From: Roseivivax jejudonensis
GTDB lineage: Bacteria > Pseudomonadota > Alphaproteobacteria > Rhodobacterales > Rhodobacteraceae
Assembly: GCF_900172265.1 (NCBI RefSeq)
Contig: NZ_FWFK01000001.1
Coordinates: 124,001 to 188,000 of the forward strand
Direction of reading: 5' to 3'
DNA: 64,000 bases
The notes below the pieces were generated by a model. It was not told the DNA's origin. It searched no databases and worked only from the letters and a program-made list of their open reading frames with translations. Positions 475 through 14,496 of this stretch are shown one piece after another. The translations under genes were made by a program, and so were the position numbers. Within the stretch, counting starts at the first letter, position 1; each line of letters opens with the position of its first letter.

Positions 475-548
475 GGCGAGTTGGCGGAGTGGTTACGCAG
501 CGGATTGCAAATCCGTGTACACCGGTTCGATTCCGGTACTCGCCTCCA
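475..548 (+). tRNA. tRNA-Cys (anticodon GCA)
   Basis: The acceptor stem GGCGAGT (475-481) pairs with ACTCGCC (538-544). The anticodon loop TTGCAAA places GCA at 507-509, the T arm contains GGTTCGATTCC, and the CCA end is encoded at 546-548. It is the attachment target of the element that follows: its last 14 bases plus two more are repeated at 11370-11385, so the tRNA stays intact after integration. Confidence 0.96.
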
Positions 549-550
549 TT
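535..550 (+). repeat. attL, direct repeat of the tRNA-Cys 3' end
   Basis: GGTACTCGCCTCCATT is identical to 11370-11385. It overlaps the tRNA-Cys 3' end and marks the left border of the integrated element, whose integrase gene sits at the opposite border. Confidence 0.93.
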
Positions 551-563
551 TTACCAGTAAAAT
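548..563. repeat. Inverted repeat at the left attachment junction
   Basis: ATTTTAC and GTAAAAT (7-bp arms, 2-nt centre) start at the last base of tRNA-Cys and lie just inside attL. They could be an integrase or excisionase site. The arms are A+T-rich, so the symmetry is suggestive only. Confidence 0.4.
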
Positions 564-899
564 CAACACCATGCGAGCGCAGGCCCCTCTATGGGTGCCG
601 CCACGAAGCGTTTTCTGAATACCTCGCTTCAAGGCTTTTCGCACCCTCTTAGACTCAGAAGGGGGTTTCTCTCAGGGGCGTTTTCAGGTTATTTAGCGTC
701 AGGCTGCCCGCTCGCCGAAGAGCGGGGTTAAACGGCCTTTGTGCAAGCATCGCAATCGCCGGGGTCGATGCCCGGTTCGTCAGGCTTCCACGCAGCCGCC
801 CGGAAATCGGCAACCTCCGAGCAATGACGATCTCTTCAACGCAGCAAGCGTCGAGGGATCGTGTGCGCACTCCCTCGACCGTTTCGAGAGGAGGCCGTG
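549..899. other. Noncoding left end of the satellite
   Basis: About 350 bases separate tRNA-Cys from the first satellite gene. Frames here have no credible start or family resemblance. Visible structure is the junction inverted repeat at 548-563 and the strong inverted repeat at 851-878 before the AlpA-like gene. It probably holds integrase arm sites and the promoter of the rightward replication genes. Confidence 0.5.
851..878. promoter_or_regulatory. Nested palindrome before the AlpA-like gene
   Basis: TCGAGGGA (851-858) and TCCCTCGA (871-878) are perfect 8-bp arms. The spacer contains the perfect palindrome GTGCGCAC (863-870). The structure ends 22 bases before the start codon at 900, a fitting place for an operator controlling the first satellite operon, perhaps autoregulated by the AlpA-like protein. 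Confidence 0.5.
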
Positions 900-1193
900 A
901 TGCCCCGTCAAGAAGTCGAGCCCGCCCGCTCCTACAACACCGCGCCGGTGAACAGCGCCCGCGCGCGCTCCGATTGGAACACCATGCCCGATTATGACCG
1001 CCTTCCGATGTGGTCGCTGATCGGTGTTTCGGAGGTCTCAATCCTTACCGGCCTATCCCGTACGGCGCTCGATGCGCGCCTTGCGGAAGGCACCTTCCCC
1101 GCTCCCTCCAAGCACGGGAAGAACCGCGTTTGGTCGCTCCAGCAGGTTCGCAATTGGTGCGTCTCCGTCACGGAGGGCGCTCTCAATGGATAA
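900..1193 (+). CDS. AlpA-like helix-turn-helix regulator
   Basis: A 97-residue protein. After a 35-residue polar N-terminus comes a MerR/AlpA-type winged helix (about residues 40-88): IGVSEVSILTGLSRTAL forms the helix-turn-helix, and RVWSLQQVRNW is the wing and helix that usually closes this fold. AlpA-type proteins in P4-like satellites control the integrase/excisionase and early genes. A longer in-frame start at 861 is less likely, because an AGAGGAGG ribosome site sits six bases before the ATG at 900. The last eight bases overlap the next gene (ATGGATAA). The target could be the palindrome just upstream or the shared 14-bp site; neither is shown here. Confidence 0.7.
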   Translation: MPRQEVEPARSYNTAPVNSARARSDWNTMPDYDRLPMWSLIGVSEVSILTGLSRTALDARLAEGTFPAPSKHGKNRVWSLQQVRNWCVSVTEGALNG

Positions 1194-1641
1194 GCAGGTT
1201 ATCGAGCGCAAGACCTCGGTCGAGAAGATGATCGAGGACGCCAACCGGCATTCGCGGCGCCAACAGAGCGCGGAAAAGATTGTTCGCCAAGCTGACAAGC
1301 TGCGACGGGAGACGGCGCAGGACGGCCATGACCCCCGCTTCCCGGAGGGATGGGGCGAGCCGCTGGCCAAGTTCTTCGTCACCTATCGCTTCACAGAGAA
1401 CGGGACGGAAGAGACCGTCCACCCCGTTCGCCCGTCGACCGATCAGTATCTCACAGTCTACCGCTTCGGCGGGTTCGAGGCCACGGCGACCTTCGACAGA
1501 TACTACTTCGGCCCCCACGAAGATCTGAACTGGGAGAGGACGCCGCCGCCTTCCGGCGCTTGGAAAGAAGCCGGGCCGACTGAGAACCGCTCTACGCTCT
1601 GGACGCGTACCCGTTCGACCGGAGGGCAGCGCGATGACTGA
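1186..1641 (+). CDS. Satellite protein of unknown function, 151 aa
   Basis: The start at 1186 overlaps the stop of the AlpA-like gene (ATGGATAA) and has GGAGGG a few bases upstream. Residues 1-45 are charged and probably helical (many Lys, Arg, Glu). The rest is a compact, aromatic-rich segment (FFVTYRF, YLTVYRFGGFEAT, FDRYYFG) that reads like beta strands of a small alpha+beta domain. No family is recognised. It sits between the regulator and the primase and overlaps the primase start by eight bases, so it is translated with the replication gene. A role in replication or its control is a guess from position. Confidence 0.6.
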   Translation: MDKQVIERKTSVEKMIEDANRHSRRQQSAEKIVRQADKLRRETAQDGHDPRFPEGWGEPLAKFFVTYRFTENGTEETVHPVRPSTDQYLTVYRFGGFEATATFDRYYFGPHEDLNWERTPPPSGAWKEAGPTENRSTLWTRTRSTGGQRDD

Positions 1642-3739
1642 CCGCTCGGACCATCGAAACAAAACCGCCCCCAGCGAGGGACCGGGGGCGGGCGAATTTC
1701 ACAACAGCAAGGAGGGGGCTATGCCCCTTGATAGTATCGCTGAAAATGCTGACGGTGGAAAGGTTTATCAGCCTTCAGCCAATCGCGGCAGCGGTAATAG
1801 TGGCGATGTCGACCGCCCGCGCTGGAACTTCCAGACCGAGCTAATTCGACAGCACGACTATCACCACGCCGATGGGACTTATGCCTTCACGACCCAGAAA
1901 GGCCGCAACGGTAGTGGCGAGCAGGTGTGGCGCACGATCCGCAAGAACATGCTCCACCCGAAAGAGCGCTTCGAGCTGGAGGAGAAGCGCGAAGAGTTTC
2001 CCGGCATCGGGGATGAGGATTGGCTTCTCTATCGCCTGCCGGAACTTGTAGAGGCGCGTCAGCAGCCCGATCCGCTCGCCTTGGTCGTTGAGGGCGAGAA
2101 GGACGTGGAGACGGCTCGCGACTTGGGCTTCCCGGCGACGTGCAATCCGTGTGGCGCGCTAAAGTGGCGGCACGAGTTCTCGGAACACCTGCGCGGCTTC
2201 CGCGTGGCGGTCATCCCGGACAACGACGAACGCGGACGCCAGCACGCCGATATGGTTGCGCGCTCCATCGAGGACGCGGCCCACTTGGTCAAGGTCGTCG
2301 AGTTGCCCGGCGCGCAGTCGAAAGGCGACCTGAGCGATTGGGTGGCGAAGCGGCGCGAGAACGGCGAGAGCGACGAAAGCATCAAAGCCGCGCTCAACGA
2401 GTTGATCGAGCACGCTCCGGAGGCTGATCCGCCGAAGCGCAAGAAGGCTCTCGCGCCGAACGTGGATAACGTCGCGCGCGTCATGGAGGACTCACCGGAT
2501 TGGAACCCAGACGGAGAGGCATTGATCGCGTACGACGAGTTCCGGGACGAGATGATGCTACTGCATCCCGTTCCCGGGTCCAGGACGCCCAGATCGACTT
2601 TTCGCCACCGCCAGTGGAGCGACGGCGACGACGTGGCCGCCCAGAGGTGGTTCAACCGCAACGGCTTTCCGCGCGTGGCGAAACTGACGGTTCATGATGC
2701 GGCGGTGAACGTCGCGCAGCAAAACATCATCTCGCCGGTGAAGCACTACCTCGAAGCCCTGACATGGGACGGCCAGAAGCGGCTCGACCGGTGGCTAATC
2801 GACCATTGCGGCGCTGACGTTGACGACGAAGAGGGCGACGCCCCCGGGGCCAAGGCCAAGTTCGTGTCGGAGGTCGGGCGCCGGTTTTTGATATCGGCGG
2901 TGGCGCGGGCCATGGAGCCGGGCTGCAAGGCCGATGCCTGCCTCGTGCTCGAAGGCGCGCAAGGTATCGGCAAGTCAACCGCACTACGCATCCTCGCGGA
3001 CGGGCGTGAGCAGCCCAGCGGGCACCGATCGTGGTTCAATGACTCGCTGCAACAGTTCGTGGGCAAAGACGCGCAGTCCGCTTTGCGCGGCAGTTGGATC
3101 GTGGAACTGGGCGAACTCTCCGCAATGAAGCGCGCCGAGGTTGAACACATTAAAGGCTACCTTTCCCGCCAAGTGGATCGCTATCGACCGGCCTACGGGC
3201 GTAGCGAAGTGGAGATGCCTCGGAGGTGCGTGTTCGCCGGATCGACCAACAAGAGCGACTACCTCAAAGACGAAACGGGCAACCGGCGGTTCTGGCCTGT
3301 CCGCGTCACGACCATCGACCTGAAGAGGCTTCTTGAGGACCGGAATCAGCTTTGGGCGGAGGCGATGCACGCGTTCAAGAAAGGCGAGCCGTGGCACCTG
3401 CGCGGCGACGCTGCCGCCTATCAAGTCCGCGCCGCAGAGCAACGCTCCGAGGAAGATCCATGGTCAACGGTTCTGGATTGCCTGAGCGACGTGAAGGAGG
3501 TCGCCACGAGCGACGTTCTCGAGTTGCTGGGGAAGCCGACCGGCGATCAGTCGAAGCAAGACCAAATGCGCGTCGGGGCGATGCTCCAGCGAGCGGGGTG
3601 GACGACCCGGGGGAAGTTCTCCAGCGGGCCTCGCCGACACTCGCGGAGGTACGTGAACCCCGATCCGGAAGCCAAGAAGGAGATGGATCGCGAGGTGGTT
3701 GAGGAAGCCAATAGAAGGGGCGGAAATGGACCGCTCTAG
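1634..3739 (+). CDS. Toprim primase / VapE-type replicative helicase
   Basis: A 701-residue replication protein. A Toprim domain (about 145-260) shows EGEKD at 153-157 and DNDERG at 196-201, the acidic metal-binding residues of primase Toprim folds. The C-terminal half is a virulence-associated-E (VapE) superfamily 3 helicase/ATPase: Walker A GAQGIGKST (441-449), an acidic Walker B around WIVELGEL, and the hallmark STNKSDYLKDETGNRRFWPV segment. Such proteins replicate satellites from their own origin; an iteron cluster lies just downstream. Two starts are credible: 1634, overlapping the previous stop with GGAGGG upstream, and 1721, behind a near-perfect AAGGAGG. Both forms may be made. The sequence appears complete. 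Confidence 0.85.
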   Translation: MTDRSDHRNKTAPSEGPGAGEFHNSKEGAMPLDSIAENADGGKVYQPSANRGSGNSGDVDRPRWNFQTELIRQHDYHHADGTYAFTTQKGRNGSGEQVWRTIRKNMLHPKERFELEEKREEFPGIGDEDWLLYRLPELVEARQQPDPLALVVEGEKDVETARDLGFPATCNPCGALKWRHEFSEHLRGFRVAVIPDNDERGRQHADMVARSIEDAAHLVKVVELPGAQSKGDLSDWVAKRRENGESDESIKAALNELIEHAPEADPPKRKKALAPNVDNVARVMEDSPDWNPDGEALIAYDEFRDEMMLLHPVPGSRTPRSTFRHRQWSDGDDVAAQRWFNRNGFPRVAKLTVHDAAVNVAQQNIISPVKHYLEALTWDGQKRLDRWLIDHCGADVDDEEGDAPGAKAKFVSEVGRRFLISAVARAMEPGCKADACLVLEGAQGIGKSTALRILADGREQPSGHRSWFNDSLQQFVGKDAQSALRGSWIVELGELSAMKRAEVEHIKGYLSRQVDRYRPAYGRSEVEMPRRCVFAGSTNKSDYLKDETGNRRFWPVRVTTIDLKRLLEDRNQLWAEAMHAFKKGEPWHLRGDAAAYQVRAAEQRSEEDPWSTVLDCLSDVKEVATSDVLELLGKPTGDQSKQDQMRVGAMLQRAGWTTRGKFSSGPRRHSRRYVNPDPEAKKEMDREVVEEANRRGGNGPL

Positions 3740-3760
3740 GCGAGCCGCCTTGGGGCGTCA

Positions 3761-3966
3761 GGCGGCGCGAAAATGGGGTCTAATTGAGACAACTTCTTTT
3801 CGGGCGCGCCGCCCGCGCCGCCTTTTCCTTGGCGTTTCACTGGCAGTCGGTAACAATATGTTATTACTAGTAATTCCTAGGATATGTCTATTAGGGCAGG
3901 CGGCGCGAATATGGGAGGCGGCGCGTTTTACGTGAAACGCGAGCTAGAGGCGGCGCGGGCGGCGCG
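3761..3966. other. Probable replication origin with seven 9-bp iterons
   Basis: GGCGGCGCG occurs forward at 3761, 3899, 3917, 3949 and 3958 and inverted (CGCGCCGCC) at 3805 and 3814: seven exact copies in 206 bases. The inverted pair and the forward cluster flank an A+T-rich stretch (about 3850-3893) suited to strand opening. The third forward copy overlaps a CGCGTTT/AAACGCG inverted repeat (3922-3941). Position directly after the primase-helicase gene, the iterons and the A+T-rich core match satellite and plasmid origins recognised by their own initiator. Nothing here encodes a credible protein. Confidence 0.7.
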
Positions 3967-4067
3967 GCGGCTCTCCTTCCTCCGTCCGGGGCCCCTCCGG
4001 CCCCCTCCCCGCGACAGAGCTGATCGGGGTCTGAGGGTCCGGGCTTTCAAGACTTCTGCGGCGAATT

Positions 4068-4093
4068 GGCAAAAGAAGGGCATTTCTTTTGCC
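4068..4093. terminator. Strong hairpin between origin and packaging genes
   Basis: GGCAAAAGAA (4068-4077) and TTCTTTTGCC (4084-4093) form a perfect 10-bp stem around GGGCAT. No T-run follows, so it is not a standard intrinsic terminator. It could end transcription from the primase gene with help, mark a packaging site, or be a single-strand initiation hairpin. Confidence 0.4.
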
Positions 4094-4114
4094 CCCTACC
4101 CCGAAATCGCCCAC

Positions 4115-4133
4115 GGAGGACCAACCATCCTCC
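4115..4133. repeat. GGAGGA / TCCTCC inverted repeat
   Basis: Six-base arms at 4115-4120 and 4128-4133 enclose seven bases (CCAACCA). It lies between the larger hairpin and the A+T-rich promoter stretch. The purpose is unknown; low information content makes chance possible. Confidence 0.3.
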
Positions 4134-4208
4134 ATATTGTGGGTAAAGTACTTTTAGATACCATATATATACGTTAGCGTTCGGAGTCAGGATCCGCGCA
4201 AACACCCG

Positions 4209-4222
4209 ATAGGACCCCCTAT
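4209..4222. promoter_or_regulatory. Shared 14-bp operator-like site (copy 1, packaging genes)
   Basis: ATAGGACCCCCTAT is identical to 11263-11276 before the integrase. ATAGG and CCTAT are inverted arms around ACCC. This copy ends 37 bases before the start of the terminase gene at 4260. An identical pair of sites before two oppositely oriented satellite operons suggests one regulator, from the satellite or from a helper phage, acts on both. Confidence 0.55.
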
Positions 4223-4259
4223 TTGTGAGCTAGTGTGGCCCAGAAGTCGGAGGAGTGTA

Positions 4260-4646
4260 ATGCCAAAGCCCAGCGTGCCCGAGAAGTTCCGCCCCGGATA
4301 TATCGGGGAGATGGACCGCCGCACGAAGCTGGGCGCGATTATGCAGGCCCGGTGGCAGGAGGTCACGGAAGACCTCGGCGGACCGGACCGGCTTTCCTAC
4401 GCGCAACGCTCGCTGATCGAGCGGGCGCTCTGGCTCGAATACTGGCTACAGGCACAAGAGGCGTCCTTGGGTGAAGGGCGCATTCAGGACTTCGACCCGG
4501 GCCAATGGGTGCAGGCCGCCAATTCGCTGCAAGGCATCTTCTCGCGCCTCGGGCTTGAGCGCCGTTCGCGCGACGTGAAGGACATTACCGACTACCTCGA
4601 CAGCAAGGCGCGGCGCGGACGGTCGCAGAAGGTCGCTCATGGCTGA
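4260..4646 (+). CDS. Candidate terminase small subunit
   Basis: A 128-residue helical protein (EMDRRTKLGAIMQARW, SYAQRSLIERALWLEYWL) with a basic C-terminus (SKARRGRSQK). The start at 4260 has GGAGGA five bases upstream, which rules out the earlier GTG at 4233. It overlaps the large-terminase start by eight bases (ATGGCTGA). Position and size fit a terminase small subunit that recognises the satellite packaging site, but I see no diagnostic motif, so the call leans on context. If right, it would give the satellite its own DNA recognition on top of its own motor. Confidence 0.55.
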   Translation: MPKPSVPEKFRPGYIGEMDRRTKLGAIMQARWQEVTEDLGGPDRLSYAQRSLIERALWLEYWLQAQEASLGEGRIQDFDPGQWVQAANSLQGIFSRLGLERRSRDVKDITDYLDSKARRGRSQKVAHG

Positions 4647-6102
4647 GCCGTCGGTCACGATTGTCGAGGCGATGAGCGACCCAGAGTTGTTCGGCGACAC
4701 CTTCGGGGGCGATAGCTGGGAGGCGTGGAGAGCGCTGCTTGGAGCGTTCTACGGCCTTCCCGTTTCCGCCCGCTCCGAAAAGACCGTCGAGGCCCTTACG
4801 GCGCGCTCCGTGGGCGCCTGTGGCTCCTTCCGCGAGTTGTGGATGGCGATCGGGCGGCGCGGCGGAAAGAGCCACGTGGCGGCGCTCATCGCGACCTATG
4901 AGGCCGTGTTCCGGGACCACCGCCCTAAGCTCTCGCCGGGGGAGTGGGCCACCGTCGCGCTGATCGCGGCGGACCGAGCGCAGGCGCGCACGCTGTTCCG
5001 CTACATCCGGGCGATGTTCGCTCATCCTTTGCTCGCGCCGCTCGTGTTGCGCGAGACCTCGGACAGCTTGGAGCTACGCAACCGGACTGCGATCGAGGTC
5101 CACACGGCCAGCTTCCGAAAAGTCAGGGGCTACACTCTGGCGGCAGTCATCGCGGACGAAATCGCGTTCTGGCAAGTCGAAGGCGCCAGCCCGGACCGCG
5201 AGATCATCACCGCGCTTCGACCCGCGCTCGCGACGCTAGACGGCAAGCTTGTGGCGCTCTCCTCGCCCTACGCGAAGCGCGGGGTATTGTGGGGCGCCTT
5301 CAAGCGCCACCACGGCTCAAACAGCGAGCGGGTCTTGGTCGCGCAGGCGCCGTCACGGACGATGAACCCTACGCTGCCTCAATCTGCCATCGACGACGCC
5401 ATGGCCGAAGACCCGGAAGCGGCGCGGGCGGAGTATCTCGCCGAGTTCCGCACGGACATATCCTCGCTGATCGACCCGGGGCTGGTGGCCGATTGCTCGC
5501 GCCCCAAGCCGCGCGACCTGCCGCCTACGACGGGCGTCCAATACGTCGCCTTCGTGGACCCGGCGGGCGGCGGGGGAGACGAGTTCACTTTGGCGATCGG
5601 CCACCGGGAGGACGACGCGGTGGTGGTGGACCTATCGACCGGGCTCAAGGGCTCGCCAGCCGCGATCGTTGAGGAATACGCGCGCACATTGGGCCGCTAC
5701 GGCGTCCGCCGCGTCGTGGGCGACAGGTACGCGGGCCGCTGGCCGCGAGACGAGTTCGCGAAGCACGGCATCCAGTATGACGTATCGGACCTCGACCGTA
5801 GCGGGCTGTATCTGGAAATGCTCGCGGCGCTCAATTCCGGGCAGGTGGAGCTACCGCCCTGCGAAGTGCTGTCTCGGCAATTGATCGGGTTGGAGCGCCG
5901 AACGAGCCGCAGCGGACGCGATCAGATCGACCATGGGCCCGGAGGCCACGACGACCGCGCCAATGCGGTCGCAGGACTTGTCGCCAACATCGGGCGGCGC
6001 AAGGCGCTCTCGGGAATACTCCTGAAGGCGCGGAACCGGGCCGGGAAACCGGCTGCCCCTCAACCGCAAGAGAGAGGAATGAGATGGAACGAGTGTTTGT
6101 GA
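4639..6102 (+). CDS. Phage-type terminase large subunit
   Basis: A 487-residue DNA-packaging motor and nuclease. The ATPase half has Walker A GRRGGKS (near residue 75), Walker B as hydrophobic residues then ADE (AAVIADEIAFW), and the coupling motif ALSSP. The RNase-H-like nuclease half shows an acidic first strand (FVDPAGGGGDEF), a second acidic position (VVGDRYAG) and the closing HGPGGHDDRANA. All catalytic positions expected of the family are present, so it should be active. Terminases work on a portal, and none is encoded in this element, so it must dock on a helper-phage portal. The next gene starts inside its last 19 bases. Confidence 0.88.
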   Translation: MAEPSVTIVEAMSDPELFGDTFGGDSWEAWRALLGAFYGLPVSARSEKTVEALTARSVGACGSFRELWMAIGRRGGKSHVAALIATYEAVFRDHRPKLSPGEWATVALIAADRAQARTLFRYIRAMFAHPLLAPLVLRETSDSLELRNRTAIEVHTASFRKVRGYTLAAVIADEIAFWQVEGASPDREIITALRPALATLDGKLVALSSPYAKRGVLWGAFKRHHGSNSERVLVAQAPSRTMNPTLPQSAIDDAMAEDPEAARAEYLAEFRTDISSLIDPGLVADCSRPKPRDLPPTTGVQYVAFVDPAGGGGDEFTLAIGHREDDAVVVDLSTGLKGSPAAIVEEYARTLGRYGVRRVVGDRYAGRWPRDEFAKHGIQYDVSDLDRSGLYLEMLAALNSGQVELPPCEVLSRQLIGLERRTSRSGRDQIDHGPGGHDDRANAVAGLVANIGRRKALSGILLKARNRAGKPAAPQPQERGMRWNECL

Positions 6103-6341
6103 CGACGACTGCCGTGCCGATCGACGGCGCGCAGAGGGTCAACGCAGAGCGAACAGAGGCTGAGCCCTCCTACTCGCTGGCCGAGGACTGGGAGCGGGAA
6201 ACCGTCACGAACGACGCGGGTTCGCTAGCCGAGGACTGGGAAGGAGAGCCGGAGCGCACCTGGTCGCCCGATGACGTCCGCGTCCCTTGGGCCAACGGCG
6301 CGAGCGACTACACGCTGGCCGAAGACTGGGAGAAAGAATGA
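6084..6341 (+). CDS. Small protein with three LAEDWE motifs
   Basis: An 85-residue acidic protein built around three copies of (S/T)LAEDWE, at residues 31-37, 47-53 and 77-83; the last is two residues from the C-terminus. Between them the sequence is low in hydrophobics and likely disordered. The start has AGAGAGG six bases upstream and lies within the terminase gene; the stop overlaps the next start (ATGA). No family is recognised. Repeated short amphipathic acidic motifs in a flexible chain usually bind several copies of one partner, and here the packaging context suggests a terminase, portal or capsid protein. That is inference. Confidence 0.7.
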   Translation: MERVFVTTTAVPIDGAQRVNAERTEAEPSYSLAEDWERETVTNDAGSLAEDWEGEPERTWSPDDVRVPWANGASDYTLAEDWEKE

Positions 6342-7021
6342 TGAGTGCCGCCGAGAAATCCAAGACCAAGCCGGATCTGACGATGGTTCGCGATCCCGCT
6401 TCCATCTGGCCCGATCCATTCGAGTGCCCGGACTACCCGCTGACGGTGGCCGGCGAGCGCCTGACGGGCGCTTACAGCCGGGCGCAAGCTGAGCAAAAAC
6501 TGCGGACGTTGTCGAAACAGATGAACGGCAATCACTCACTACATAAGCCGTCTGAGCATGAACGCTCCGCTGCACTGAGCACGCACTTCAAACAGCAACG
6601 CGGCCATGGCCCGGCCCGACCTCTGATGAATGCCCTCGGCTTCACTGACATGGCGCCAACGCAGCAGGGCAAGCTGATTGCTCAAGCCGTTCATCTGCGC
6701 GGGTACTTGAGGAAGCTGGAAGCGCGAGACGCCGAACGCGAGAAGGCCGCTCAGGAACGGCGTGAGCACAAAGCGCGATCCAAGCTGGAGCGCTATTCCT
6801 CGTATGTCGACGGGCTCGAAGCGGAGGCCGACGAGCTACTGGCGAGGGCGGAGCGCTACCGGCAGTTCCTCGCAGACAAGGCCGCGTACCACCGGGTAAT
6901 GGACCTGCGCACGGAGATCGACGCAACGCACCGGGAAGCAGCCACCGCTGCCGCGGAGCTAGGCGAGCCCTCGCCGGACAGGCCCGCGTGGATCGACAAG
7001 CTGACAGCGTTTGCCGACTAG
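6338..7021 (+). CDS. Satellite protein of unknown function, coiled coil, 228 aa
   Basis: The ATG at 6338 overlaps the preceding stop (ATGA), with a second ATG at 6341. The N-terminal part (1-100) is mixed. Residues about 110-200 are strongly charged and helical (RKLEARDAEREKAAQERREH, YVDGLEAEADELLARAERYR), reading as a long coiled coil. The last 25 residues are Pro-rich. No catalytic motif or signal peptide is seen. Its position after the terminase genes would suit a scaffold-like or particle-assembly modifier; that is position only. Confidence 0.6.
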   Translation: MMSAAEKSKTKPDLTMVRDPASIWPDPFECPDYPLTVAGERLTGAYSRAQAEQKLRTLSKQMNGNHSLHKPSEHERSAALSTHFKQQRGHGPARPLMNALGFTDMAPTQQGKLIAQAVHLRGYLRKLEARDAEREKAAQERREHKARSKLERYSSYVDGLEAEADELLARAERYRQFLADKAAYHRVMDLRTEIDATHREAATAAAELGEPSPDRPAWIDKLTAFAD

Positions 7022-7043
7022 CGCGAGACAAGGAGGCCCTGCG

Positions 7044-7238
7044 ATGGAAGAGAACGAGAGTGAGCCCCGGTACGCGCAGTTGCTAGCGCGTATCGAGCGG
7101 GCCGAGGCCGCGATCAAGGCGAAGCAGGAGAAGATCGACGCCATAGCGCGACGGTTGGACGGCCTTGGTACCGACAGATATCTGGCAGGCAGCGCTCAGT
7201 CAGGACGGATCTACCCAGAGACGACCGCAGCTCACTAA
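7044..7238 (+). CDS. Small coiled-coil protein, 64 aa
   Basis: The start at 7044 is set by AAGGAGG at 7030-7036, 22 bases after the previous stop. Residues 8-45 form a heptad-like helix (LLARIERAEAAIKAKQEKID), and the remaining tail is polar. It is the last gene of the rightward packaging operon. No family is recognised; it may pair with the longer coiled-coil protein before it. Confidence 0.6.
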   Translation: MEENESEPRYAQLLARIERAEAAIKAKQEKIDAIARRLDGLGTDRYLAGSAQSGRIYPETTAAH

Positions 7239-7606
7239 AGCGGAGATTTGAGCGCCCGTATGGTGGTGACCCCCTGCAAAACGCTGGTCCATCAGGCACG
7301 CAACGAACAACCCGCATGAGCCAGAACGGTGATTTTCGCGCGAGTACCAGTGGCGCCTACACGCGGCGAGCGCGCTTACCAAAGTCGCTCAGCGGGACGC
7401 GACCCACAAAACGCTTCGCCGGTGGCAGGCATTACCACTGTTGTGCATATCGCAGAGCGTACTTTCGAACGCGCAGCCATCACGCACTCAGCTTAGCCGA
7501 CTTCAAAAACACACACCTACCCACAAGCGGCCCGCCGCTATTGTGATTCTCTTTGCGGTGGCCAGGCATTTCCGACAAACGTCTGGACGTTACCACCCTA
7601 TCGACT
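7239..7606. promoter_or_regulatory. Leader region of the KAP NTPase gene with an imperfect direct repeat
   Basis: No credible gene lies here. CGGTGGCAGGCATTACC (7420-7436) and CGGTGGCCAGGCATTTCC (7556-7573) form a direct repeat differing by one inserted and one changed base, about 136 bases apart, the second ending 33 bases before the chosen start at 7607. They may be operator half-sites of the cargo gene. Confidence 0.35.
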
Positions 7607-9625
7607 ATGGTCGCAACGAAGAGCATTAAGGCGGAACCTTTTTTCATGCATGATGCAGCCCGAAACCAAATTCGACGATTCCTATCGGATTGGGTCAATT
7701 CGCCTGATAATCCAAAATTTGCCGTGATGCTTGAAGGTCGGTGGGGATGCGGGAAGACGCACTTCATTCAGCAAGTTGTGAGCGAACCAAACTTCACAAG
7801 GCGAAAAACCATATATCTTTCGCTGTTTGGCATTAGCAACTTGCAGGATTTTGAGCGACAGCTGTTTTATGCCGGATCATCCAACGCAATACGGATTATG
7901 CATCAGGGGGTCGGCTTTGCCTCGTCACTTTTTTCTGGGGCAATTTCGATTGGGTCTGGAGGTATGTTCTCAGGATCGGCGGACATCGGAAAAGCTGTCG
8001 AAAGCACTTTGGGCCAAGTAACCAAAGCCGCTGATGCAATCAATGAAGCCTTGGTAATAATTGACGACCTTGAGAGGTGCAGTTTTGACCAATCCGAGTT
8101 ACTCGGCGTTCTAAACAGACACATTGAACATGGCAACTCTCGCGTCATCTTAGTCGCAAACACACAGCGAATTGACAACGATCGGTTTGCCGAGTTTCGC
8201 GAAAAAGTAATCGGCCAAACATTCGAAATTCCACCCGACCCTAAGGGCGCTGTCGATGCGTTCATTGCGGAGATGTCGGAGAGTGCTGCAACAACATTAA
8301 TCGTCTCTCGAGCTGAGGGAATTCAGGAACTCTATCGCCTCTCTGGATTCAACAATCTCCGGGCCGTCCGTCAGTTCTTTTGGTTCCTGGCAGGCATGCT
8401 CGAAGCTACAGATCAGAAACTCCAAGAGAATGAAAAACTGATTGACAGCCTTATTACCCAAGCTTTCATTTTCTTTATGGAATTCAAATTGAACCTTGGC
8501 GGCCCAGAAAACTCTTTAACCCCCATTGATCTGTTGCCAGAATTTGGAGGCGACGATCCTGAACTACGAAGCTTCTTTGCATTCAAGATGAAAGAAGACA
8601 CCCCGGACACTCCCAAGCTGAAAGTATTAAAAAAATACAATATTATAAATGGCATCCAGACGGCCATCACAATTCATCAGTGGATTGATATCCTCAATAT
8701 CGGAACTGTCGATGCAGACCGTTTCAACGCCGAACTGGCTGGCGCTCCGGAAGTCAATGGCCCGGATAGCTGGCCGTCTTGGAAACGGCTATGGCATATT
8801 TGGAGCTGGGACTTTTCAGACGGTTCGGCGACAGAATTCAACGCCGACATCGATGATATTCGCAAAGGAATTGAAGAAGGTCGTTATAAAAACCCTCATG
8901 TTGTGATGCACGTTGTAGGGGTAACGTTGATGCTACTCGATGAAGAATTGATCGAAGACATCGAGGGCGGCTGGGTCCATAGGTTCAAGCTTTACATTGA
9001 TGAAATTGTTATTCCTGCGCTTGATCTGGACAGCTTTGATGCGACACGGTGGAGTTTTGATTCAGGTTATGACAATCTAGGTTACGCCCGTCGTGAAAAA
9101 AGCGATTTCATCGAGGTGCTCGATCATCTGAAGCAATCAGCACGTGATTGGTACTCACACTACAAGGCGGAAGCGGTTGCTGGGCACCTCATCGAAACCC
9201 TGAAATCGGATTACTTTGCATTTCTTGGCGACCTTGTGATTGTCAATGGAAAGGGAGATCAAAGATTTCTCAAAGAACCAATTCTTCAAACCATTGACGT
9301 AGATGACTTCGTGAATGCATGGTTGTCGCTAGGCAGGCAAGAAGAGCACTTACTTACGCGTTACTTCGACGAACGATATGATCAAGTGCCGGATTTGATT
9401 TTGACTGAGGGCCCGTGGTGGCAGGGTGTTGCAAATGCGGTTTTAATCAAAATTGATGATGAGCCGGCAATGCCTCGAAAGGCTCAACTACAAGGATTAG
9501 TGGGGGGGATCGAAAGATTGATCGACGACAGACTTGAAAAGGCGCGACTAAGAAGCCTGTTCGTCGAACCAATCTGCAAAATGGAAATCGATCTTAGCTG
9601 GACCTTATCCACCTCACGATCGTAG
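7607..9625 (+). CDS. KAP-family P-loop NTPase, probable defence cargo
   Basis: A 672-residue ATPase. Walker A is GRWGCGKT (about residues 44-51) and Walker B is LVIIDDLERC (149-158), the signature order of KAP P-loop NTPases. A Gly/Ser-rich hydrophobic stretch between them (about 100-125) sits where KAP proteins carry their membrane insertion, though it is weak. The large C-terminal half is all-alpha-like and unrecognised. Base composition is clearly more A+T-rich than every other gene in the window, a sign of separate acquisition. The start at 7607 is chosen because the earlier TTG (7553) lacks support; 7646 is also possible. Single-gene cargo between the packaging genes and integrase of satellites is often anti-phage; that role is inferred. 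Confidence 0.75.
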   Translation: MVATKSIKAEPFFMHDAARNQIRRFLSDWVNSPDNPKFAVMLEGRWGCGKTHFIQQVVSEPNFTRRKTIYLSLFGISNLQDFERQLFYAGSSNAIRIMHQGVGFASSLFSGAISIGSGGMFSGSADIGKAVESTLGQVTKAADAINEALVIIDDLERCSFDQSELLGVLNRHIEHGNSRVILVANTQRIDNDRFAEFREKVIGQTFEIPPDPKGAVDAFIAEMSESAATTLIVSRAEGIQELYRLSGFNNLRAVRQFFWFLAGMLEATDQKLQENEKLIDSLITQAFIFFMEFKLNLGGPENSLTPIDLLPEFGGDDPELRSFFAFKMKEDTPDTPKLKVLKKYNIINGIQTAITIHQWIDILNIGTVDADRFNAELAGAPEVNGPDSWPSWKRLWHIWSWDFSDGSATEFNADIDDIRKGIEEGRYKNPHVVMHVVGVTLMLLDEELIEDIEGGWVHRFKLYIDEIVIPALDLDSFDATRWSFDSGYDNLGYARREKSDFIEVLDHLKQSARDWYSHYKAEAVAGHLIETLKSDYFAFLGDLVIVNGKGDQRFLKEPILQTIDVDDFVNAWLSLGRQEEHLLTRYFDERYDQVPDLILTEGPWWQGVANAVLIKIDDEPAMPRKAQLQGLVGGIERLIDDRLEKARLRSLFVEPICKMEIDLSWTLSTSRS

Positions 9626-9873
9626 CTTAATTCATCGGTCCCCGCCCATCGTTGCTCCGCCAAGAGCTCGGCATAAAACATGACGAGCGCATCCAATTCG
9701 CAGCACTAGTGCCCGCTCTCAACTGAGAGTTCGGCCCTTAGCTTTGAACATCAAAAGCGGCGCAGCGATATATCGTTTCATGGAAGAACTGCGATTTGCG
9801 CTCCGGGCGACCCTCAGATCTTTTGAGTTCAGGCAATTTCGGGAAACGCCAGGCCGCAAGCACGGCAGAAAGC
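9626..9873. other. Gap between convergent KAP and integrase genes
   Basis: About 250 bases between two convergent stop codons. Short frames here have no start support. No clear stem plus T-run terminator is seen. Base composition shifts from A+T-rich back to G+C-rich, so the edge of the acquired cargo probably lies here. Confidence 0.45.
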
Positions 9874-11244
9874 CTAGCAAATCAATCTTCCGGTCGAACA
9901 ATCGGCAGGAAGCTCGCTCAGCGCAAAGTTCGCCCACTCGTCCATCAACGCGCGCCGCTTCTCAACCATGTCCGTTCTGTTGTAGGCTCGCTCCACTGCC
10001 GTTCCGACATTATGCGCGAGGGCCATCTCGACCATCTCGTATGGGTGGCTGGTTTGCTCGGACGCCCAGACGCGGAAGGTGGAGCGGAAGCCATGAGGCG
10101 TCGCGGGGCGTCCCGAGGCCGGATCGACAAGCCCATCCCCGCCCGCCTTCAGATCTGCAGCGTGCATCTTCTTCAGTAGGGCCGCTAGCGTCGCATCGCT
10201 CATCGGCTTCTTGAGCCCGGAGCCCGGCCAGATCAGGTCCATTCCGGCGAAGCGCGGCGAGCCGTTCAGAATTGCGAGCGCCGCCTCAGACAGCGGGACG
10301 CGATGGTCCTTGCTCGCCTTCATTCGCGCCGCAGGGATTGTCCACAGCCCTCGTTCAAGATCAATCTCGCTCCACGTTGCACCGCGAACCTCTCCCGAGC
10401 GGGCCGCAGTCAGGATCAGGAACTCTAGCGCCCGGGACGTCGGCGACGGCTTACGCGCGCGGAGCGCGGCAATGAAGGAGGGCAACCGCGTGAAAGGGAG
10501 CGAGGGCTGGTTCGCTTTCTGACGCACCTTCTCCGGCTTGGGCAGGATGGCGGCGAGATGGTCTTTCCACTGCGCGGGGTTCGGCCCGCCCCGGTGGCCG
10601 CTGGAGATCTCCCGACGGAGGATCATCTCGACCTTCTTGATGCACCGCTGCGCACGCTCGGGCACTGACTGCCAGAGTGGCTTTTCGGTTTTGGTGCCGT
10701 AGCGAATATGGGGGCGTTCGGTAATCTCGATGATTTGGGCGGTTTCGATCTGATCGACCGGCACGTCTCCGATAACTGGGAATGCGAACTTCTTAAGATC
10801 GTTCATCCACTGGCCTTCGTCCTTCGCGTTCGCCGACCCCCGAACCTTGGCGTTGAAGTAGTCCAGCGCCGCCTCTCGGAAGGTCCGAGTGGCCGTCTTT
10901 CGCGGTCCGCTCTCCGACCTCCTCGCGCGCCTCTCCTCAGTCGGATCTACCCCAGCCCACAGCTTATCGAGGACAGTGCGCGCTCGCTCACGGGCAGCAG
11001 CCAGCGTAATATCCGGCCACCGACCTAGGGCGAAGTCTCGGCGCCTTCCCTCGTGGGTTCGGCGTAGAACCCAAGACGCAGACATTGCCTCGCCAGACTC
11101 ATACCGGCGCATCCGAACGTTAAGCGCGAGGCCTGACACGCCCCCTACCCGGACCAGCCCTGGCGCCGTCTTGCCCGCTTCGATTGCGCGGACGCGCTTG
11201 TTCAGAGCAGATACAGTCATCTCGTCTACTGGGCGACGTGGCAT
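9874..11244 (-). CDS. Tyrosine-type site-specific integrase
   Basis: A 456-residue integrase with the N-terminal arm-binding domain of P4-like integrases (LRRTHEGRRRDFALGRWPDITLAAAR, read here in two parts around residues 55-85) and a C-terminal catalytic domain. Catalytic residues are Arg in TAARSGEVR, His and Arg in HGFRSTFR, His in LAHN and the Tyr nucleophile in AYNRTD. It recombines the tRNA-Cys site to insert and excise the satellite. The start at 11244 follows AGGAGGG; a longer start at 11295 would run through the operator-like site at 11263. It is transcribed away from the right border, the usual polarity for satellites. Confidence 0.92.
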   Translation of the reverse strand: MPRRPVDEMTVSALNKRVRAIEAGKTAPGLVRVGGVSGLALNVRMRRYESGEAMSASWVLRRTHEGRRRDFALGRWPDITLAAARERARTVLDKLWAGVDPTEERRARRSESGPRKTATRTFREAALDYFNAKVRGSANAKDEGQWMNDLKKFAFPVIGDVPVDQIETAQIIEITERPHIRYGTKTEKPLWQSVPERAQRCIKKVEMILRREISSGHRGGPNPAQWKDHLAAILPKPEKVRQKANQPSLPFTRLPSFIAALRARKPSPTSRALEFLILTAARSGEVRGATWSEIDLERGLWTIPAARMKASKDHRVPLSEAALAILNGSPRFAGMDLIWPGSGLKKPMSDATLAALLKKMHAADLKAGGDGLVDPASGRPATPHGFRSTFRVWASEQTSHPYEMVEMALAHNVGTAVERAYNRTDMVEKRRALMDEWANFALSELPADCSTGRLIC

Positions 11245-11262
11245 GGAGCCCCTCCTGATCTC

Positions 11263-11276
11263 ATAGGACCCCCTAT
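11263..11276. promoter_or_regulatory. Shared 14-bp operator-like site (copy 2, integrase)
   Basis: ATAGGACCCCCTAT matches 4209-4222 exactly. It ends 18 bases upstream of the integrase start codon, so a bound protein would block or activate integrase transcription or translation. Confidence 0.55.
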
Positions 11277-11369
11277 AAGTGCCCGTCTTTACCACCCGAG
11301 AAAACCCTTCTCGCGCCCAAGATGCGAAAAAAACTCAAGAAAAGCTATTCCGGTTGGGTTGTTGGGGGA

Positions 11370-11385
11370 GGTACTCGCCTCCATT
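11370..11385 (+). repeat. attR, second copy of the tRNA-Cys 3' end
   Basis: GGTACTCGCCTCCATT repeats 535-550 and marks the right border of the element. The base composition and gene style beyond it return to chromosome. Confidence 0.93.
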
Positions 11386-11804
11386 CAAAATCAATGGCTT
11401 GAGCTCCACTGACCGCCCTTTACCGGTGACGGTCGGCGTGTCGCTTCGGACGGGCCATCCGCGGTCGGCCTGCCCACCGGCCACGAAGGTCGGGCGATCC
11501 GATGGGCGGACCAAGCAGCGGCATCTGACGGGAAGAGCCCGAAGCAACGACGCTGCGCCGCGCCTCGGATAGTCGTGACCGGGCTCAGCCAAGACGGCGA
11601 GCCACCCACGGCAATGCCCCGCACGTCAGAAATGACCGATCATGCCCGACGCGCCAAAGCGTCGTCGTGGGACGGCGCGACGGCGCATGTGGGAAAGAGT
11701 GCGGTCAAGCGCGGTGCCATGATGGGTGGCAGGCGCCGACCGCGCGGCCTCTATCCCGGGGCCGGAACCGGCGACCGCGACGCAGCCAGAGGAGGGCCGT
11801 GGTC
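11386..11804. other. Chromosomal gap right of the satellite
   Basis: About 420 bases with no supported gene. Before integration this DNA would have followed tRNA-Cys directly. An AGAGGAGGG ribosome site for the next gene ends it. I see no clear promoter or terminator. Confidence 0.5.
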
Positions 11805-13139
11805 ATGACCGAACTCAAGCCAATCAATCCCGACCATCTGCACGCGAACGTGCCCGGCATAGATCAGTCCGATCGCCGCGTGCCGACGAACCTGCGCCAA
11901 TCAGGGCCGACCTCGGTCGAGCTCCTGATCTCGACACGCGTGCGGAAGTCTCCCTTCTGGCACCTGTCGATCGAGGCCGGGGCGTGGCGCGCGACGGTCT
12001 ATAATCGCATGTACCACCCGCGTGGCTACGTGCGCCCCGAGGAGGGCGGCGCGATGGCCGAGTACGACGCGCTGGTGAACCGCGTGACCCTGTGGAACGT
12101 CGCCGTCGAGCGGCAGATCCGGGTCAAGGGGCCGGATGCCGAGGCTTTCGTCAACTTCGTCATCACCCGCGACGCCACCAAGATCGCGCCGATGCGCGGG
12201 AAGTACTGCATCCTGTGCAACGCGGCGGGTGGCATCGTGAACGACCCGGTCCTCCTGCGTCTTGCCGAGGACGAGTTCTGGTTCTCGATCTCCGACTCCG
12301 ACCTGATGCTCTGGCTGCAGGGCATCAACGTCGCCGAGGCCTGGGACGTCGAAATCGCCGAGATCGACGTCGCGCCACTCCAAGTGCAGGGTCCACTCTC
12401 GGAGGATCTGATGGCCGACCTCGTGGGCGACGAGGTTCGCGAGTTGCCATACTACGGCATGATGGAAGCGCGGATCGGAGGGGTCAGCGTCGTCATCAGC
12501 CAGACCGGCTTTTCCGGTGAAAAGGGCTACGAGGTCTACGTGCGTGACGCCACGCTGAACGCCGAAGCCGTATGGTACGCGATCCGCGGCACCGGCGCGC
12601 GCTACGGACTGCGCGTCATCGCGCCGGCGCATCATCGCCGGATCGCCGCGGGCATCCTGTCGTGGGGACAGGACATGGATTCGGAGACCTCACCGTTCGA
12701 GGTCAATCTCGCCTATCAGGTCCCGCGGAAGAAGACGGCGGAGTACGTGGGCAAGGCGGCGCTGGAAGCGCAGCGCGACCGGATTGATGCCTGCGACTAC
12801 CCGTTCCGGCAGAAGCTCGTCGGCCTTCGGCTCGGCGGTCACCCGATCACCGACTATGCGCCGGACTTCTGGCTCGTTCAGGACAGTGCTGGCGACCGCG
12901 TGGGCTACGTCACCTCGCCTTGGTGGTCCCCCGAGCTCGAGACGAACATCGCACTCGCCTATGTCCCGTGGTCGCTGAGCGAGGTCGGAACGCGACTGCA
13001 GGTAGAGCTTCCGTCAAGCTACGCGCTCGTGGCCGGCCAGCCCGTCCCGGCCGAGGTCTGCGAGATTCCGTTCCGGCCGTCCGTGAACCGCAGCGCCCGG
13101 GAGCGCGCGCGCGAGTCGGGGCGCGACTGGTCGGACTGA
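11805..13139 (+). CDS. DmdA/GcvT-family folate-dependent methyl or formaldehyde transferase
   Basis: A 444-residue protein of the glycine-cleavage-T fold. Segments RQIRVKGPDAEAFVNFVITRD (read around residues 70-90), GGIVNDPVLLRLAEDEFWFS and VQGPLSEDLMADLVGD are laid out as in DmdA, the tetrahydrofolate-dependent dimethylsulfoniopropionate demethylase of marine bacteria, and in aminomethyltransferases. It is longer than DmdA (about 370 aa), so the substrate may differ: another methylated sulfur or nitrogen compound, or an O-methyl aromatic acid, is possible. The start at 11805 follows AGAGGAGGG. It stands alone, with no folate or glycine-cleavage genes nearby. Confidence 0.75.
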   Translation: MTELKPINPDHLHANVPGIDQSDRRVPTNLRQSGPTSVELLISTRVRKSPFWHLSIEAGAWRATVYNRMYHPRGYVRPEEGGAMAEYDALVNRVTLWNVAVERQIRVKGPDAEAFVNFVITRDATKIAPMRGKYCILCNAAGGIVNDPVLLRLAEDEFWFSISDSDLMLWLQGINVAEAWDVEIAEIDVAPLQVQGPLSEDLMADLVGDEVRELPYYGMMEARIGGVSVVISQTGFSGEKGYEVYVRDATLNAEAVWYAIRGTGARYGLRVIAPAHHRRIAAGILSWGQDMDSETSPFEVNLAYQVPRKKTAEYVGKAALEAQRDRIDACDYPFRQKLVGLRLGGHPITDYAPDFWLVQDSAGDRVGYVTSPWWSPELETNIALAYVPWSLSEVGTRLQVELPSSYALVAGQPVPAEVCEIPFRPSVNRSARERARESGRDWSD

Positions 13140-13282
13140 ACACTTCGGTCATGACATGGCGGCGCGCCGGGGTCGGCGCGCCGCAGCGCGTTCCGGCCTC
13201 CTGCTTCGATGTCGCGAGACGGCGGTTGGCTTGCCTCAAGCCCTGGCCGCCGCGCCGATGCCTCGCCGAATGGCGCGTGGCT

Positions 13283-13307
13283 GGAACATTGATCCGAACT
13301 CATTGTT
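13283..13307 (+). promoter_or_regulatory. EcfG-like general-stress promoter before the CBS gene
   Basis: GGAAC at 13283-13287, then 16 bases, then TGTT at 13304-13307. The consensus is GGAAC, 16-17 bases, CGTT, so one -10 base differs. It is 45 bases before the CBS start. Confidence 0.45.
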
Positions 13308-13351
13308 GGCGCGGGTATCGGAAGGACGGCACACCGAAAGGAGGCCATTCG

Positions 13352-13777
13352 ATGCATATCCGAGAGATCATGACAGCGGACCCGATCACGATCACGCCCG
13401 AGAAGACGCTGCGTGAGGCATCCGAACTGATGAGGACCGCCGATATCGGCATCCTGCCGATCGGCGAGAACGATCAGCTCGTCGGCGCGCTCACGGATCG
13501 CGACATCGTGGTGCGCGGGCTCGCCCTCGGCCATGGGCCGGACACGCCGGTCCGCGACGCGATGAGCACCGATGTCCTCTACTGCTTCGACGACGAGGAG
13601 GTCAGCGCCGTTGCCGAAAATCTCGGCGACCAGAAACTGCGCCGCCTTCCGGTCGTCAACCGGAGCAAGCGACTCGTGGGGCTCGTGTCGCTCGGCGATG
13701 TCGCCCTGCAGGAGGACACGAGAGCCGCAGGCGATACCCTTCGCGAGATCGTTCAGGACAGCCGGACCGCAAGCTGA
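13352..13777 (+). CDS. CBS-domain pair protein
   Basis: A 141-residue cytoplasmic protein made almost entirely of two CBS domains: IREIMTADPITITPEKTLREA through VGALTDRDIVVR (about 1-60), then VRDAMSTDVLYCFDDEEVSAV through LVGLVSLGDVAL (about 68-125), read here in short pieces. CBS pairs bind adenine nucleotides and sense energy state. The start follows AAAGGAGG; a longer frame from 12920 is rejected because it reads through the previous gene. It probably shares an operon with the BON gene 29 bases downstream, under a general-stress promoter. Confidence 0.88.
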   Translation: MHIREIMTADPITITPEKTLREASELMRTADIGILPIGENDQLVGALTDRDIVVRGLALGHGPDTPVRDAMSTDVLYCFDDEEVSAVAENLGDQKLRRLPVVNRSKRLVGLVSLGDVALQEDTRAAGDTLREIVQDSRTAS

Positions 13778-13806
13778 TCGAGCGACGGCGCAGAAAGGAG
13801 CGATCC

Positions 13807-14496
13807 ATGGTGCCGAGACACAGCTTCAGGGGGTGGGGCGACCAACGTCCCCATCCCGACGTCGAGCGCGGTTTTCACGGCCGTGGCGATCCGCGCCACG
13901 AGGATCCGCGCGATCCCTACCGGACAGAGCCGGCCGGCTCCGACCGCGAGAGCCGGCTCCGCGAGGCGCACCGCGACCCGGAGCGAGACATGGAAGCTCG
14001 AAGAGAGCGCGAGCGCCAGCATTGGCTGCGATACCATACCGGGCCGTGGCTCGGTCCGGGCATGTATCCCGAGGTCGTCGCCTACCCCTGGGCCGGCACG
14101 CTGGCGCCGCGCCCCGGGGGGCGCAGCGACCGACCGGTCTGGGACAGGGCCGCCGACGAAGTGGCCTCTTGGTTCGGAGACGAGGAGGCCGCCGGGCGTC
14201 GTGAGCGGGACTACTCCGGCGTCGGACCGCGGAACTATCGGCGCTCCGACGCCCGGATCGAGGAAGACGTCAACGACGGGCTGACCGACGACCCCGCGCT
14301 CGACGCAACGGATATCGAGGTCAGCGTTACCGACCGCGAAGTTACGCTGGATGGATACGTGCGCAGCCGCCACGGCAAGCGCCGCGCCGAAGATTGCGCC
14401 GATGCCGTTCTCGGGGTGCAGCACGTGCAGAACAATCTCAGAATAAGAGACTCCGTTTCGGAGTCCGAGGCGTTCGCGCCCGGCAGTTCGACCTGA
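13807..14496 (+). CDS. BON-domain protein with long charged N-terminus
   Basis: A 229-residue protein. The first 130 residues are rich in Arg, Asp, His and Gly (RHEDPRDPYR, RDPERDMEARRERERQHW) and look disordered. Residues about 150-215 are a BON domain: SDARIEEDVNDGLTDDPALD, IEVSVTDREVTLDGYV and the closing VQHVQNNLRI, read in separate pieces. BON domains bind membranes or phospholipids and are usually exported, but no signal peptide is seen, so this copy may be cytoplasmic. AAAGGAG precedes the start. Context is a stress-gene group. Confidence 0.82.
   Translation: MVPRHSFRGWGDQRPHPDVERGFHGRGDPRHEDPRDPYRTEPAGSDRESRLREAHRDPERDMEARRERERQHWLRYHTGPWLGPGMYPEVVAYPWAGTLAPRPGGRSDRPVWDRAADEVASWFGDEEAAGRRERDYSGVGPRNYRRSDARIEEDVNDGLTDDPALDATDIEVSVTDREVTLDGYVRSRHGKRRAEDCADAVLGVQHVQNNLRIRDSVSESEAFAPGSST

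Follow-up and report, generated by a model that had tools for sequence, protein, structure and literature searches.

The element considered here occupies positions 535-11385 of a 64,000-nt stretch of the Roseivivax jejudonensis genome (contig NZ_FWFK01000001.1, positions 124,001 to 188,000), which is the whole stretch of DNA analyzed and is referred to below as the window. Judging from its sequence, this 10,851-bp element is probably, at about three chances in four, a phage satellite in integrated form, from a lineage distinguished by a two-subunit packaging motor of its own, consisting of a small (TerS) and a large (TerL) terminase subunit. As is generally expected of satellites, it is an integrated unit that has its own mobility and replication genes and an incomplete set of virion genes; the portal, capsid, tail, and lysis genes of a complete prophage were not recognized in it. 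Relatives that have the same motor and different shell or tail-ruler parts suggest a little-known way of hijacking phage particles.

Integration borders and packaging motor

The element is flanked by two exact 16-bp copies of the att repeat GGTACTCGCCTCCATT at the 3' end of a tRNA-Cys gene, and within the window this sequence occurs solely at these two places (Table 1). The first copy consists of the final 14 nt of the tRNA gene and 2 further nt. A match of at least 13 nt to positions 529-552 was found in none of 300 dinucleotide shuffles of positions 551-14000. The integrase gene starts 74 nt inward of the second copy and is read inward.

For TerL, the motifs read are a Walker A motif of the form GRR(G/A)GK(S/T), a Walker B motif (DE), and the nuclease aspartates in FxD(P/A), GDRY, and DD. 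The catalytic residues are present in all 14 aligned rows (the window and 13 relatives). A loose motif count over 85 rows found each pattern in 65 to 70 rows, and the exact columns were then read in the 14 chosen rows. Purifying selection acts on TerL in the closest two pairs of loci, L019-L021 and L014-L022, the only ones with a proportion of synonymous differences (pS) below 0.3; their ratios of nonsynonymous to synonymous differences (pN/pS) are 0.088 and 0.126, respectively. The other nine pairs have values of 0.096 to 0.425 (0.088 to 0.425 for all 11 pairs).

Position, membership of a 31-row family, and predicted fold identify the product of 4260-4646 as TerS, with confidence that is good though short of complete. 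No significant family match was found in Pfam, PHROGs, or NCBIfam, and a profile search of PDB sequences gave no meaningful match. The open reading frame (ORF) upstream of or overlapping the TerL gene is alignable as one family in 31 chosen loci, and portal-bearing phage loci often have a different ORF upstream of TerL. An AlphaFold model based on 20 rows (predicted local distance difference test, pLDDT, 85.7) has four helices. In a Foldseek comparison of this model with viral models (BFVD), nine of the first 11 rows were named terminase small subunit, none of them with an E-value below 0.001.

The initial annotation of this DNA had named the 16-bp att repeats, VapE, iterons, TerL, and integrase, all of which were borne out by the scans and shuffles. 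It had also stated that portal, capsid, tail, and lysis genes are missing from the element, in agreement with the present scans, in which no such gene reached significance. Its AlpA-like call has weak family support (a PHROG match, with the Pfam match under the cut-off), and its Toprim call, weak in Pfam, agrees with PHROG and NCBIfam models. Its small terminase is retained on position, family, and fold, and not through a significant family match.

Related elements and the genes downstream of TerL

The distribution of TerL was searched with a profile of five TerL sequences. Labels such as L002 denote the loci compared, and the family below is that of the window genome. With the window genome included, the profile matched 10 of 390 genomes of the order (nine near full length and one partial) and four of 385 genomes of the class, in addition to 75 distinct IMG/VR loci, two of which were weak. 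A scan of genome contigs gave a relative in three loci, namely two Brevundimonas metagenome-assembled genomes and a short planctomycete contig. Among 50,697 phage records, only eight had any match; none covered 80% of the query, and the best had 32.5% identity over 55%. When a single TerL sequence was the query, three of 295 genomes in a family sample were matched (that of the window among them, and two very weakly), and a first viral scan gave no match. Matches were also present in five plasmid records, and three of these were inspected. The Komagataeibacter nataicola plasmid pKNA06 (L007) has TerS-TerL followed by a head maturation protease, Methylobacterium pM44601 (23 of 58 kb viewed) has TerS and TerL amid an otherwise plasmid-like record, and a 9.7-kb Roseomonas plasmid has a primase, a resolvase, TerS, and a truncated TerL. 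In the 25.8-kb circle of pKNA06, some segments occur twice: one of 2895 nt and one of 826 nt recur exactly, shifted by 15,209 and 15,210 bp, respectively.

In five of the nine other matching genomes of the order, all from the same family, the units are bounded on both sides by repeats at the tRNA end: L098 at tRNA-Tyr (15 bp), L099 at tRNA-Cys (49 bp), L100 at tRNA-Arg (16 bp), L102 at tRNA-Pro (31+18 bp), and L104 at tRNA-Gly (16 bp). The Brevundimonas relatives L002 and L003 are likewise att-bounded at tRNA-Ser (18 and 15 bp, respectively). The window and these seven relatives make up eight att-bounded elements of 8.6-12.3 kb. In the remaining family loci (L101, L103, L105, and L106), a tRNA gene adjoins the post-TerL genes; the first three reach contig ends, and L106 has a partial TerL. 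Repeats of at least 13 bp were absent in these four loci and in L025, L027, and L032, that is, in seven of the 15 loci tested. The integrase and the tRNA context recur in relatives where contigs reach far enough, and the L102 integrase matches phrog_1 (2.9e-46). The initial annotation had anticipated a recurrent class beside tRNA genes, and its gene plan was found again at Tyr, Cys, Arg, Pro, Gly, and Ser tRNAs.

Two IMG/VR contigs, L019 and L021 (9398 and 9819 bp), have ends that repeat over 60 and 114 nt, respectively, which suggests that the units, of 9.3 and 9.7 kb, are circular or concatemeric. Both have an integrase-cluster gene, TerS, TerL, and a tape measure gene, with no capsid or portal recognized; the gene set of L021 includes a replication initiator, TerS, TerL, a protein similar to family C78 (see below), a neck protein, and the tape measure. 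A third contig, L063 (8231 bp), has 114-nt repeated ends that give an 8.1-kb unit with a phrog_10 capsid, a ParB-like protein, and a distant TerL. No TerS or integrase-cluster gene was seen in L063, and the ORF caller gave no further ORF above 166 aa.

The TerL tree (quick IQ-TREE run with Shimodaira-Hasegawa-like approximate likelihood ratio test, SH-aLRT, support) has 85 rows. Eight of 93 rows were excluded for being under 330 residues, L088 yielded no TerL at the cut-off used, and L087 and L108 have very long branches. The window and eight TerLs of the same family form a clade of nine rows (SH-aLRT 100), and no member locus has a recognized portal. Satellite-like loci are found in other parts of the tree too, so a single origin is not claimed. 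A 275-aa product of L003 (L003:15203-16030) matches a PHROG named terminase large subunit (2.6e-8); by eye it is unlike TerL, and that family is perhaps mislabelled.

Twelve units were taken as complete, namely the eight att-bounded elements, L019 and L021 with their repeated ends, and the plasmid records L007 and L009 (the TerL of L009 is truncated). L063, with its TerL distant in the tree and no TerS found, was outside this set and scanned separately. A phmmer comparison of the 796 ORFs of these 12 units with 41 portal sequences gave no credible portal. The lone match (E-value 0.0079), to an 83-aa antisense ORF of L002, was taken as chance. In the control for this search, nine of 13 control contigs were recovered when self-matches are included; only L047 (E-value 2.1e-55) and L070 (through L061) were recovered by the portal of another contig, and L020, L023, L024, and L037 had no match.

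TerS-TerL is common across the lineage, whereas the replication and post-TerL genes differ, so that TerL looks like a core component and not a late addition. After TerL, a major capsid protein of phrog_10 is found in L103 (3.2e-64), L105 (1.7e-72), and L106 (4.2e-63), and one of phrog_247 in L104 (3.3e-95) and L099 (1.6e-97). The latter two have a scaffold protein of phrog_206 ahead of the capsid gene (2.9e-11 and 1.3e-7, respectively). Tape-measure-like proteins occur in L003, L099, L021, and L019. A helical family, C78, is present in L098, L100, and L101 and distantly in L021 (hhalign, 96%), and another family, C55, lies beside the same TerL in the window, L102, L033, and L003. On the nine-row clade, the four kinds of post-TerL gene require five changes, the minimum being three; with labels shuffled, the mean is 5.4, and roughly every second shuffle gets by with at most five. 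The kind of part therefore does not follow the TerL tree, with the caveat that nine rows give little power.

C55 lies where sister elements have their capsid, scaffold, and tape-measure genes, and it may set head or tail size. Its structure prediction by AlphaFold2 (pLDDT 84.5), made from three sequences only, has a long helix. A profile comparison with PDB sequences and a fold search against viral models gave no significant match for C55, and comparisons with C78 and with the L021 protein gave nothing useful. The C55 profile matched one of 196 genomes of the order (the genome of L102 is outside that sample) and, in IMG/VR, only L033.

Because sisters of the same clade carry a capsid, scaffold, or tape measure and no complete unit has a portal, the class appears to be better described as an own motor plus a variable assembly part. 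The compact satellite with replication genes and a full terminase that the initial annotation had proposed thus holds for the window element, but not without modification for the class. A capsid or portal gene within the same unit, which the initial annotation had named as counter-evidence, was looked for and not found in the window element. It is conceivable, if somewhat doubtful, that the lineage, which is best seen in Alphaproteobacteria, hijacks by part replacement, combining a private TerS-TerL core with one to few interchangeable size or maturation parts and with no portal in complete members. On the same tentative footing, the interchangeable parts would be a capsid, a scaffold plus capsid, a tape measure, a head protease, and C55 and C78 as unrecognized size-setters. 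If true, the helper portal would be the docking point that the foreign motor, an exchanged head or tail ruler, and the rest of the helper virion necessarily share.

Beyond integration, an intact motor, and no recognized portal, we infer the following course of events. Entry or induction of a helper phage would lead to excision of the element by the integrase and the AlpA-like protein. Replication by the VapE protein, starting at the iteron origin, would yield concatemers. TerS would select the satellite's own DNA, and TerL would dock on the portal of helper procapsids and fill them. The heads would otherwise be built mostly of helper parts, and helper tails and lysis would release the particles. 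The post-TerL genes (C55 here; capsid, scaffold, tape measure, and protease genes in sisters) may adjust the assembly of heads or tails to the needs of the satellite.

Alternative explanations and known satellites

Several observations weigh against the satellite reading. Family support is weak for the AlpA-like product of 900-1193 and weak or indirect for TerS. The pN/pS values of TerS (0.12 to 0.85 over 10 pairs) are less clear than those of TerL, and the ORF of the window-L101 pair is probably wrong. In the pairs with the window, silent sites are near saturation, so that pN/pS says nothing on the window copy. The TerL profile matches one of nine genomes of the genus, and L106, L109, and L009 are decayed or cut relatives with partial TerL. 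In a search for an empty site with the left flank and tRNA, all eight same-genus genomes matched at tRNA-Cys, with matches that barely extend past the tRNA; the right flank was not syntenic in the same-genus genomes. Finally, no helper phage was identified, as would also be expected of a chromosomal interference or defense island that is not transferred in particles, its terminase sabotaging DNA packaging by invading phages and its KAP NTPase acting in defense. Such an island would account for the candidate defense gene, but it is highly improbable given the integrase, att sites, replication protein, and iterons, and given that recurrence at different tRNAs needs mobility. Prophage remnants are common, and the broken or cut state of the three relatives named above would agree with a decayed prophage from which the structural genes have disappeared and in which integrase, primase, and terminase happen to survive. 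This origin is very unlikely for units that share the same reduced plan and TerS-TerL family, are att-bounded within a narrow size range, and recur at different tRNAs. The separate TerL clade, with intact catalytic residues and purifying selection in close pairs, and the two related IMG/VR contigs with repeated ends also argue against it.

An ordinary phage-inducible chromosomal island (PICI) or P4-like satellite that acquired a TerL gene would have the same skeleton of integrase, AlpA-like regulator, primase and origin, and TerS (PMC6092414; the sources cited here by PMC number are drawn on in excerpt, and what is said of them applies to those excerpts). This explanation is unlikely, since TerS-TerL is shared across the lineage while other genes vary, and since no P4 or PICI morphogenesis marker was recognized in the window with Pfam and PHROGs. 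No match was found there to P4-type structural hijack genes (Sid, Psu, and the like), and the sensitivity of the models in those libraries is unverified; PICI-specific morphogenesis or interference genes were likewise not among the Pfam and PHROG matches, and no search with dedicated satellite models was made. Capsid-forming PICIs (cf-PICIs) carry both terminase subunits (PMC10690885), and some sister elements carry a capsid gene, so secondary loss of head genes by a cf-PICI relative has to be considered as well. It is quite unlikely, as no portal, adaptor, or HNH gene was recognized in the window element and sister capsids of two PHROG families (phrog_10 and phrog_247) lie on one TerL clade. 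The five-change pattern of post-TerL genes also fits separate captures, again with the little power of nine rows.

The portal may also come from within the same genome, or from clusters like gene transfer agents in relatives, instead of an external phage. A genome-wide search with PF04860 gave a portal in 11 of 14 genomes, and every match was outside the element; 10 of the 13 other genomes hold at least one. In the window genome, the sole PF04860 portal found lies in a compact head-and-tail element of about 16 kb, outside the window on contig C6 at about 683.8-700 kb (L118:12836 to L110:9745). A search of this genome for a second portal family gave no match, and for a third family the control itself was unmatched. 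The 16-kb element has genes for an integrase, tape measure, TerL, TerS, tail terminator, neck, major tail protein, capsid, and portal. Its TerS-TerL genes lie between neck and tape measure and have other best families than those of the window. It is a candidate defective prophage, cf-PICI-like unit, or helper. A portal provider of this internal kind is improbable: no link was found between the two elements, and their best TerL families differ (phrog_2 for the window and phrog_9 for the other), each matching that of the other less strongly. Most family genomes searched with PF04860 hold one strong portal, and L111, L112, L114, and L115 have a similar capsid gene near it. This capsid-portal neighborhood is suggestive of a gene transfer agent cluster. 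The portal-adjacent capsid genes of these four loci share 35-39% identity with the capsid proteins of L103, L105, and L106. The L103 capsid, however, matches sequenced phages equally closely, with up to 41% identity, and a special link to gene transfer agent capsids is therefore not claimed.

The customary classification of satellites goes by the functions that they take from a helper. Among the types in the excerpts, some depend on the large terminase of the helper, some supply an entire head, and some supply TerS along with a capsid gene and a protease. Elements with a complete motor of their own and in some cases a head or tail ruler, yet no portal, would fall between these types. Gram-negative PICIs have, like the window element, an integrase, an AlpA-type regulator, a primase with origin, sometimes TerS, and accessory genes (PMC6092414). 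Of these features, the integrase, primase, and iterons are clear in the window and AlpA is weak. That excerpt says nothing of a large subunit in PICIs, whereas the present lineage shares a TerS-TerL core; PICIs are packaged by the helper's large terminase with at most a TerS of their own, and the window element has its own TerL with intact residues. The cf-PICIs are similar in having both terminase subunits together with an integrase, but they supply their own portal, protease, capsid, and connectors and depend on the helper for tails alone (PMC10690885; PMC13230959), and none of these head genes was recognized in the window element. The Vibrio plasmid satellite PISP has few assembly genes and no portal mentioned, and the present lineage has plasmid forms (L007 and L009); PISP differs in having capsid protein E, a protease, and TerS, with no TerL mentioned (PMC13230959).

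P4-like satellites share the integrase and primase skeleton and the idea of head-size redirection, but P4 is packaged by the P2 terminase (PMC10690885), and Sid is unrecognized in the window. The phage-inducible chromosomal minimalist island (PICMI) is similar in its integrase, AlpA, primase, defense cargo, and small size; it has no identifiable packaging genes and a site next to fis (PMC10803314), whereas the window element has terminase genes and is located at tRNA-Cys. The Streptomyces satellites MulchRoom and MiniFlayer have both terminase subunits, but they carry portal, capsid, scaffold, and adaptor genes without obvious replicases (PMC10690885). In the Pseudomonas satellite AH14b, an integrase, an AlpA-like protein, and a primase are present as here, and its authors found no terminase (PMC4936722). 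In the literature searched, with known types compared by description only, no satellite with both terminase subunits and no portal was found described, nor were such elements found described for alphaproteobacterial genomes; the word satellite is absent from the excerpts of two alphaproteobacterial papers (PMC13386836; PMC10783043). The novelty of an own-motor, portal-less satellite lineage is provisional. Natural part swaps in such elements would make motor-portal compatibility and particle-size control testable.

Replication module and accessory genes

Scans of all 10 called genes of the element covered Pfam, PHROGs, NCBIfam, and PADLOC. Leaving the terminase aside, none of the genes matched a structural or lysis family significantly in Pfam, PHROGs, or NCBIfam; the nearest was a sub-threshold match of the 6338-7021 product to Pfam Glucosaminidase (E-value 0.049; 14.7 bits, with a cut-off of 30.2). 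The Toprim part of the primase is weak in Pfam (0.028) but is covered by PHROG primases as well as by an NCBIfam model (4.6e-17, residues 131-241). The presumed origin lies in the 520-bp gap between the primase and TerS genes. It has seven copies of the 9-mer GGCGGCGCG on both strands, which are seven of the 19 copies in the whole window. Seven copies were reached in none of 500 shuffles, in which the mean maximum was near two. A perfect 19-nt inverted repeat (3805-3823/3948-3966) lies inside this region.

Table 1. Features of the element and its integration site (positions in the window; HTH, helix-turn-helix)
Feature	Position	Strand	Evidence or remark
tRNA-Cys (GCA), integration target	475-548	+	ARAGORN
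attL, 16-bp direct repeat at tRNA 3' end	535-550	+	Repeat search, shuffles
AlpA-like HTH regulator/excisionase, weak	900-1193	+	PHROG excisionase/regulator, E 1.5e-5; Pfam AlpA, E 0.015, under cut-off
151-aa protein between regulator and primase	1186-1641	+	No significant family match
Toprim/VapE-type primase-helicase, putative replication protein	1634-3739	+	Pfam VapE, E 3.8e-75; PHROG DNA helicase, 2.8e-96
Presumed replication origin, seven iterons	3740-4259	.	Iteron copies at 3761-3966
TerS (probable), 128 aa	4260-4646	+	31-row family upstream of TerL; fold matches to named TerS, best E 3.2e-3
TerL, 487 aa, ATPase and nuclease residues intact	4639-6102	+	phrog_2, E 1.7e-24; motifs
85-aa protein, three LAEDWE repeats	6084-6341	+	No significant family match; stop overlaps C55 start
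C55, 227 aa, candidate assembly/size-setting protein	6338-7021	+	Predicted 100-residue helix
64-aa charged protein, helical-looking by eye	7044-7238	+	Sub-threshold family matches only
KAP-family P-loop NTPase, candidate anti-phage cargo	7607-9625	+	PADLOC PDC-S49, E 1.3e-111
Tyrosine integrase	9874-11295	-	Pfam, E 1.1e-13; PHROG, E 2.9e-40
attR, second 16-bp copy	11370-11385	+	Repeat search, shuffles

The KAP-family NTPase gene, which was not mentioned in the initial annotation, has a guanine-cytosine content of 47%, compared with 61-67% in the other nine genes, as expected for a later arrival. Its product is probably cargo with a role in anti-phage defense. In P4-like satellites, variable defense genes likewise lie in a hotspot (PMC9122126). 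Within the sister element L102, a DNA methyltransferase-like cargo gene is present at L102:5026-6333.

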